43,524 nt of DNA from the NCBI GenBank assembly GCA_021733835.1, contig JAIPKD010000023.1:1-43524 (forward strand), in the 5' to 3' direction. Made by a program: the position numbers and the translations under genes. The DNA comes from Verrucomicrobiota bacterium. Its GTDB lineage: Bacteria; Verrucomicrobiota; Verrucomicrobiia; Limisphaerales; JAIPKD01. The notes under the pieces are model-generated. The model was not told where the DNA came from, searched no databases, and was given only the letters and a program-made list of their open reading frames with translations. Below, one piece after another: positions 8,771 to 9,928 of this stretch (positions are counted from its first letter, which is position 1; each line of letters starts with the position of its first letter).

Positions 8771-8868
8771 TTTGAGGTTTGAGGTTTGAGATTTCAGATT
8801 TGAGATTTCAGATTTGAGATTTGAGGTTTGAGGTTTGAGATTTCAGATTTGAGATTTCAGATTTGAGA
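8771..8868. repeat. Hierarchical heptamer tandem repeat (14 x 7 bp = 2 x 49 bp)
   Basis: The stretch consists of fourteen back-to-back 7-bp units of the form TTT[G/C]AG[G/A]. In order they are TTTGAGG, TTTGAGG, TTTGAGA, TTTCAGA, TTTGAGA, TTTCAGA, TTTGAGA, and then the same seven again. The array is therefore two exact, adjacent copies of a 49-bp block that is itself seven variants of one heptamer. It begins two bases after the uvrC stop and ends 22 bp before the -35 box of the next promoter. There is no reading frame and no obvious hairpin. Slippage or unequal exchange is the likely origin. Confidence 0.95.
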
Positions 8869-8890
8869 TAAAAAAACCGCCGGTTCACGA

Positions 8891-8918
8891 TTGACACCGC
8901 TATAGATTTCAATATGAT
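8891..8918 (+). promoter_or_regulatory. Sigma70-type promoter for the SPFH/PH/RHH operon
   Basis: A perfect TTGACA -35 box (8891-8896) is followed after 16 bp by TATGAT (8913-8918), five of six bases of the -10 consensus. A second TATGAT sits 11 bp further on (8924-8929) within a direct repeat of TATGATAT, so the start point may be doubled. The first codon downstream is the ATG at 8989. Whether the PVC housekeeping sigma factor reads it is inferred from the consensus only. Confidence 0.7.
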
Positions 8919-8988: not shown

Positions 8989-9384
8989 ATGAAAAACGAT
9001 GTTATTGGATCGTCGAAAGAGAAGACCATCACTGTGTTTAACGGATGGCCAATGCTTATTTTAATGATTGCGCTGATCTTGCTTGGTTTATACATGCTGA
9101 TCAGTTTTTTTATTGGTTTGGATCAAGGGAATCCGACCTGGGGATTGTTGTGGGCGAGCGTTATTGTTGAAACTGCCGGATGGCTGATTACTCCCGGTTT
9201 TTTTACGCTCCAGCCGAATGAGAGTAGGGGACTGATACTATTCGGTGCGTATGTAGGTATTGTCCGGAGGAGCGGTTTTCACTGGACGAATCCGTTGAAC
9301 AAGAAGATTCGTGTTTCTCTCAGGGCACGGAACCTGAACGGCCCCAAGCTGAAAGTGATTCAAGATCAGGAACATGAGCAATAA
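8989..9384 (+). CDS. Truncated SPFH/band-7-like membrane protein
   Basis: The protein has 131 residues and two hydrophobic segments (about 20-45 and 52-72). A stretch very like the beginning of an SPFH (stomatin/prohibitin/flotillin) domain follows: G-F-F-T-L-Q-P-N-E-S-R at about 76-86, then L-F-G-A-Y-V-G, S-G-F-H-W-T-N-P and S-L-R-A-R-N-L-N-G-P-K-L-K-V. In full members known to me this leads into the SPFH core; here the frame stops eleven codons later, after I-Q-D-Q-E-H-E-Q. The next gene is a different protein. So only the membrane anchor and first strands are present. It overlaps the next gene at ATGAGCAATAA, which suggests coupled translation. Either it is a natural short form or the remnant of an internal deletion. 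Confidence 0.75.
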   Translation: MKNDVIGSSKEKTITVFNGWPMLILMIALILLGLYMLISFFIGLDQGNPTWGLLWASVIVETAGWLITPGFFTLQPNESRGLILFGAYVGIVRRSGFHWTNPLNKKIRVSLRARNLNGPKLKVIQDQEHEQ

Positions 9385-9928
9385 AGATTATTTTGAAGCG
9401 GCGCCGATGTCTGGAATGGTTTACGGCGTTACAATCGTTTCGACGTTGCTGTTAATTGGCTCGGCAGTAATAATTTGGTTCTTGCCGGGTAACATACCGT
9501 TGGTTATCAGGATTACAACATCTATTGTGCCGTTGTTGATAATCATTGGAACCGCCATGTATTTGGTGAGGGGTTACTCTATTAAGCCGGATTATTTAGG
9601 GGTGCAACGGTTGTTTTGGGAGACGCAACTGCCGTTAACGCGTGTAAACAAGATTGTTGTAGATTCCGAGGCTATGCGAGGTTCCCTTCGAGTTTTCGGG
9701 AACGGCGGATTCCTCGGATTCTTCGGGTTATTCAAGAACAAGAAACTGGGGTATTTCAGGGCATACGCGACGAACCCGAAGCATTCGGTGGTCTTGATGG
9801 GTGATAAGAGGTCTTATCTGATCACGCCGGAGCATCCCCGGGAGCTGGTCGATGCGCTTTACGAGCGGCTCAGCCGGCGGCGGCAAGTAATCGTTGAGTA
9901 TCCGGACGATCGGAATTCAAATGAATGA
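9374..9928 (+). CDS. Membrane protein with bacterial PH-like domain
   Basis: The protein has 184 residues. Two membrane spans (about 15-36 and 42-64) are followed by a soluble domain with S-I-K-P-D-Y-L-G-V-Q-R, L-P-L-T-R-V-N-K-I-V, a Gly-Phe-rich turn (G-N-G-G-F-L-G-F-F-G), Y-F-R-A-Y-A-T-N-P and Y-L-I-T-P-E-H-P-R-E-L-V-D-A-L. This pattern fits the bacterial PH-like membrane proteins (bPH/DUF families), which are thought to act as membrane-associated scaffolds and are not enzymes. It overlaps the truncated SPFH gene by 11 bp and precedes the ribbon-helix-helix gene. The family name is from recall; a small-ligand or lipid-binding role is inference. Confidence 0.7.
   Translation: MSNKDYFEAAPMSGMVYGVTIVSTLLLIGSAVIIWFLPGNIPLVIRITTSIVPLLIIIGTAMYLVRGYSIKPDYLGVQRLFWETQLPLTRVNKIVVDSEAMRGSLRVFGNGGFLGFFGLFKNKKLGYFRAYATNPKHSVVLMGDKRSYLITPEHPRELVDALYERLSRRRQVIVEYPDDRNSNE

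Follow-up and report, generated by a model that had tools for sequence, protein, structure and literature searches.

Prokaryotic SPFH operons with NfeD partners have been described for subfamilies SPFH1, 2 and 5, whereas no NfeD partner was found for subfamilies 3, 4 and 6–12 (Hinderhofer et al., 2009, PMC2636767). The operon that we examined is like the NfeD type in that an SPFH gene stands at the head of a conserved operon and has a membrane protein as partner, but unlike it in the partners themselves, a bPH_5 (bacterial PH-like) protein, here PH, and a ribbon-helix-helix (RHH) protein. A text search of a collection of papers returned none naming or describing an SPFH-PH-RHH operon or an SPFH-RHH pairing (SPFH with a ribbon-helix-helix partner gave a single full-text match, which was unrelated, and SPFH with pleckstrin homology gave nothing relevant). 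Across genomes, the SPFH-RHH pair, often accompanied by bPH_5, is widespread in Verrucomicrobiota, Planctomycetota and some Proteobacteria, and the RHH gene follows the SPFH gene almost everywhere.

The window, that is, the whole stretch of 43,524 nucleotides analysed here, is contig C75 in a draft genome of 2.84 Mb, which comprises 114 contigs and is 91.9% complete. It carries this operon with an SPFH gene of only 131 codons, hereafter the stub (Table 1). The preliminary description of the locus had recognised in this frame two membrane segments and the start of an SPFH subfamily, and matches to full-length relatives bear it out. The stub aligned with the N-termini of full-length SPFH proteins (best match in another genome E 1.4e-33, 56% identity, residues 6–124); as a query it matched 11/38 sampled relatives (own genome counted), always within frames of ~295–370 codons, and 86/319 other genomes of the order at E ≤ 0.001. 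When the suggested comparison with SPFH families was made, the similarity to full-length SPFH N-termini was thus strong, while the Pfam Band_7 profile alone stayed below threshold (E 0.0039, 17.7 bits vs. a cut-off of 23.6; residues 83–123 on profile positions 12–52 of 176). Homology by descent is clear because the full-length relatives match, although the stub's own Band_7 score lies below the curated cut-off; one full-length homologue (L003) matches Band_7 at E 3.3e-28 over residues 81–252. The stub matches the N-terminal start of a ~300-residue SPFH family, a definable SPFH subfamily. Measured against SPFH / Band 7 (PF01145), it retains its N-terminal membrane portion and some 50 of the ~172 domain residues and lacks the SPFH2 domain and the coiled coil, whereas its full-length relatives resemble that family both in profile (Band_7 E 3e-28) and in predicted fold (near stomatin, prohibitin, HflK and QmcA).

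Table 1. Features of the truncated SPFH operon, in positions of the window.
Feature	Position	Strand	Remarks
Sigma-70-like promoter, TTGACA-16-TATGAT	8891..8918	+	11/12 consensus bases; 70 bp upstream of stub start
Truncated SPFH gene (stub), 131 aa, ATG start	8989..9384	+	two membrane helices and first ~53 SPFH residues
Predicted transmembrane hairpin of the stub	9042..9198	+	helices at residues 19–45 and 51–70 (AlphaFold2)
Retained start of the SPFH domain, residues 71–123	9199..9357	+	FFTLQPNE...GFHWTNP...SLRARNLNGPKLKV; Band_7 match, alignment
Non-homologous tail IQDQEHEQ	9358..9381	+	3' of the deletion junction; includes the AGGA preceding the PH start
bPH_5 (bacterial PH-like domain) membrane protein, 184 aa	9374..9928	+	PF10882, E 1.4e-15
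Small ribbon-helix-helix (RHH_5/Arc-like) protein, 68 aa	9974..10180	+	RHH_5 E 2.4e-5, just under cut-off

The expression signals had been described as intact, and so we found them: of the promoter-like matches to the stub-PH-RHH genes, the 11/12 site is the best (5 promoter-like sites found in the region vs. 2.2 expected in shuffles), and GGAAAGGA precedes the stub ATG as a ribosome site. The 11-bp overlap reported between the stub and the PH-like gene is likewise present (ORFs 8989-9384 and 9374-9928, sharing ATGAGCAATAA), and the AGGA is followed by the PH start after only 2 nt, which is an unusual spacing. The partner gene clearly belongs to bPH_5 (57.7 bits vs. a curated cut-off of 22.5 for PF10882); among bPH_5 membrane proteins it is an ordinary one, and its peculiarity is to be joined to a truncated SPFH gene. 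Upstream, between uvrC and the stub promoter, positions 8771–8869 hold two perfect 49-bp copies of 7-bp units (TTTGAGA/TTTCAGA/TTTGAGG), with no further copy of the 49-bp repeat within the window.

Gene order in relatives, which the preliminary description had proposed to compare, placed the stub in a conserved setting. Around dozens of homologous loci there is an operon of a full-length SPFH gene, often a bPH_5 gene, and then a small RHH gene, the third gene of the ancestral operon. This order on one strand with short gaps recurs in L006, L004, L062 and others, and the window conforms to it, with the stub standing where relatives have a full-length SPFH gene; the presence of such a gene at the same place in relatives had been named beforehand, together with read evidence of a misassembly, as counting against a natural short form. 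In the three loci just named, which have the closest layouts, the stop codon of the full-length SPFH gene lies 6–33 nt before PH; the SPFH-PH gap is short in most relatives and zero in L131. Twenty-seven loci with full-length SPFH, PH and RHH genes entered our tree set, and PH also occurs in many genomes with no SPFH gene within the roughly 1.5 kb inspected on either side. All comparison genomes came from outside the window's family and genus.

We aligned the stub with 104 distinct full-length relatives, 104/104 of them intact, and the similarity of the window ends at K122-V123, both invariant; the following residue, N124, is invariant in the 104 relatives and Ile in the stub. Only 16 nt (ATTCAAGATCAGGAAC) separate the V123 codon from the ATG of PH, and because these adjoin that ATG, the eight codons after V123 are a tail without homology that runs through the region of the PH ribosome site. 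The frame had been said to end eleven codons after ARNLNG; the truncation stands, and the count is 13 codons (PKLKVIQDQEHEQ), of which 5 are homologous (PKLKV) and 8 new. What is missing amounts to 178 residues, or about 540 bp. These C-terminal 178 residues gave no match in the rest of the 91.9% complete genome even at E 10 (the same query gave E 5e-81 to 2e-110 in three control genomes), and the C-terminal part was found on no other contig of the assembly; the genome does carry other SPFH proteins, none of the stub's family. The alignment thus indicates that an internal deletion of about 540 bp shortened the SPFH gene and removed its last three fifths. A frameshift, or a single-read or sequencing error, was rejected as an explanation, since the DNA for the remainder of the domain is absent and not merely out of frame.

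Structure prediction (AlphaFold2, 25 homologues in the alignment) gave the hairpin a block pLDDT of about 96–98 over most of its length, and the stub accordingly has the N-terminal membrane segments of an SPFH protein as two helices predicted with high confidence. Most of residues 81–131 were modelled at low confidence (block pLDDT of the SPFH remainder about 47–77), so that the model folds only as a hairpin and the retained SPFH portion is predicted to be unfolded. A complete folded SPFH1/SPFH2 domain is absent (nothing lies beyond residue 123, and the model is hairpin-only). The AlphaFold model of the full-length relative L003, by comparison, has an SPFH fold and matches stomatin (E 1e-13), HflK/C, prohibitin and QmcA; the segment corresponding to the unfolded part of the stub is there a series of strands that continues into the missing part, and residues 231–270 form a long helix. 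The C-terminal coiled coil is absent from the stub.

Of 32 positions conserved to 90% or more, the stub has kept 29 (column 124, which lies past the junction, left out), and two of its residues, V81G and T91I, occur in no full-length relative. The end branch of the stub is the longest of its tree (0.86 vs. a median of 0.22), as is that of PH (1.31 vs. 0.51), and that of RHH is the third longest (0.70 vs. 0.26); stub divergence is therefore proportionate to that of PH and RHH from the same genome, and the lineage is simply divergent. In conservation, the retained SPFH part ranks within about the lowest fifth of the family, with no significant relaxation (residual z −0.5 to −1.1). This lack of visible decay fits a fairly recent truncation and continued constraint alike.

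A second stub operon was found in another family of the same order. This genome, G307 (L139), has the same gene order: a 120-codon stub ending in ...GFHWVNPS, with PH and then RHH directly behind it, and the stub's stop codon overlaps the PH start as ATGA. The C-terminal SPFH part was not found in G307 either, and both stub genomes are incomplete multi-contig assemblies (114 and about 180 contigs). The breakpoints differ (residue 102 in G307 vs. residue 123 in the window), and in a tree of the SPFH N-terminal part, PH and RHH, G307 falls with G067, G026 and G012, whose SPFH genes are all full length. Forcing the two stubs into one clade was rejected (p-AU 0.006), with the caveat that no other single-row branch in the tree is as long as the window's, which opens the test to long-branch effects. 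Tree and breakpoints agree that the two truncations arose independently. Stubs thus make up 2/29 loci with all three genes; with PH as the query in the order and class, no stub-PH pair besides G307 was found, and a wider phylum sample added no stub operon. We rejected two further short-frame candidates of the order, namely G074 (L138, G074:C38:552600-555400, 503-1515), where a full SPFH gene of the stub's family is divided into two ORFs inside a variable insertion stretch, and G133 (L140, G133:C15:14000-16500, 574-762), where a lone fragment lies without PH or RHH. The G133 fragment comprises about 40 homologous residues and no membrane part, and is gene debris. Several full-length relatives, among them L012 (1459-2502), have several tens of residues inserted between GFHWxNPF and SLRARN, near the point at which the G307 stub breaks off. 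A programmed frameshift that would yield an SPFH-PH fusion was rejected by inspection, the PH frame being +1 of the stub in the window and −1 in G307.

We consider it the most probable explanation, though by no means an assured one, that the stub is a deletion remnant that still supplies PH and RHH with the operon's promoter and ribosome site and with translational coupling, its peptide having little or no function. The ancestor carried a full-length SPFH-bPH_5-RHH operon of the kind common in its order, and a deletion of about 540 bp then fused codon 123 of the SPFH gene to sequence 16 nt upstream of the ATG of PH. The SPFH1 domain beyond that codon was lost together with all of SPFH2 and the coiled coil, and the protein can therefore no longer build a ring-shaped SPFH scaffold; left over is the 5' end of the operon, with promoter, ribosome site, a 131-codon frame and a stop inside the PH start. 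Transcription and translation of the stub may now act chiefly as a leader for PH and RHH: a ribosome that terminates at 9384 can start again from the overlapping ATG at 9374, and such a restart is plausible, since the stub's stop codon lies among the opening codons of PH in both stub operons. Coupling would then be the reason that the frame has been retained, and the peptide itself, a membrane hairpin with an unfolded tail, would do little or nothing of its own. PH, for its part, can act without SPFH, as it occurs in many genomes with no SPFH gene nearby. The earlier view of a maintained gene, not debris, therefore holds in part: the intact signals, the lack of visible decay and the independent G307 operon speak for it, but the best reading of the stub is as the remnant of a deletion.

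A less likely reading is that the stub is a maintained membrane microprotein, whose hairpin would bind PH or another SPFH protein of the cell and either serve as an anchor or dominantly regulate SPFH assemblies, loss of the domain having been tolerated or favoured twice. That two independent stubs retain the same part (both helices and LQPNES...GFHW.NP) in the same operon argues for it, as do the absence of excess divergence, the intact start, ribosome site and promoter, and the contrast with the partnerless G133 fragment, which shows how real debris looks. Yet any deletion that spared the promoter would also leave this 5' part in place, prediction has the remaining SPFH portion unfolded, and there are only two cases in about 29 triple loci, with no close relative in which a stub persists. 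It is doubtful that repeated shortening of the SPFH proteins of this operon has left a two-helix membrane hairpin that is still a working partner of PH-like and RHH proteins, with a function separable from the SPFH ring. We think it improbable that the organism has a full-length gene from which a metagenome misjoin dropped about 540 bp: the assembly is indeed an incomplete draft in many contigs, but the junction lies 9 kb into its contig, no other contig carries the missing part, the join sits immediately upstream of the PH start and its stop overlaps PH, and in a separate assembly (G307) a join of this kind occurs at a different codon. A one-off misassembly is unlikely precisely because an independent stub-PH-RHH operon exists in another family. 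Hardest of all to credit is a functional split in which PH, in complex with the stub, took over the scaffold role, as the preliminary description had suggested. PH does lie directly behind both stubs with overlapping frames, and other bacterial PH-like (PF08000) domains can form rings (PMC2817789), a precedent in its favour; however, PH already stands beside full-length SPFH in 27 compared loci and elsewhere without SPFH nearby, and the window's PH shows no domain gain relative to its relatives. As an ancestral neighbour of full-length SPFH that also occurs free of it, PH would not have been recruited in place of the lost domain, and this part of the earlier proposal is not supported.

The SPFH-PH-RHH operon occurs widely in Verrucomicrobiota, the SPFH-RHH pair in Planctomycetota as well. 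Two natural and independent truncations that spared PH and RHH show that both genes can persist without an SPFH ring, and from them the membrane hairpin emerges either as a leader that can be dispensed with or as a functional module separable from the ring.
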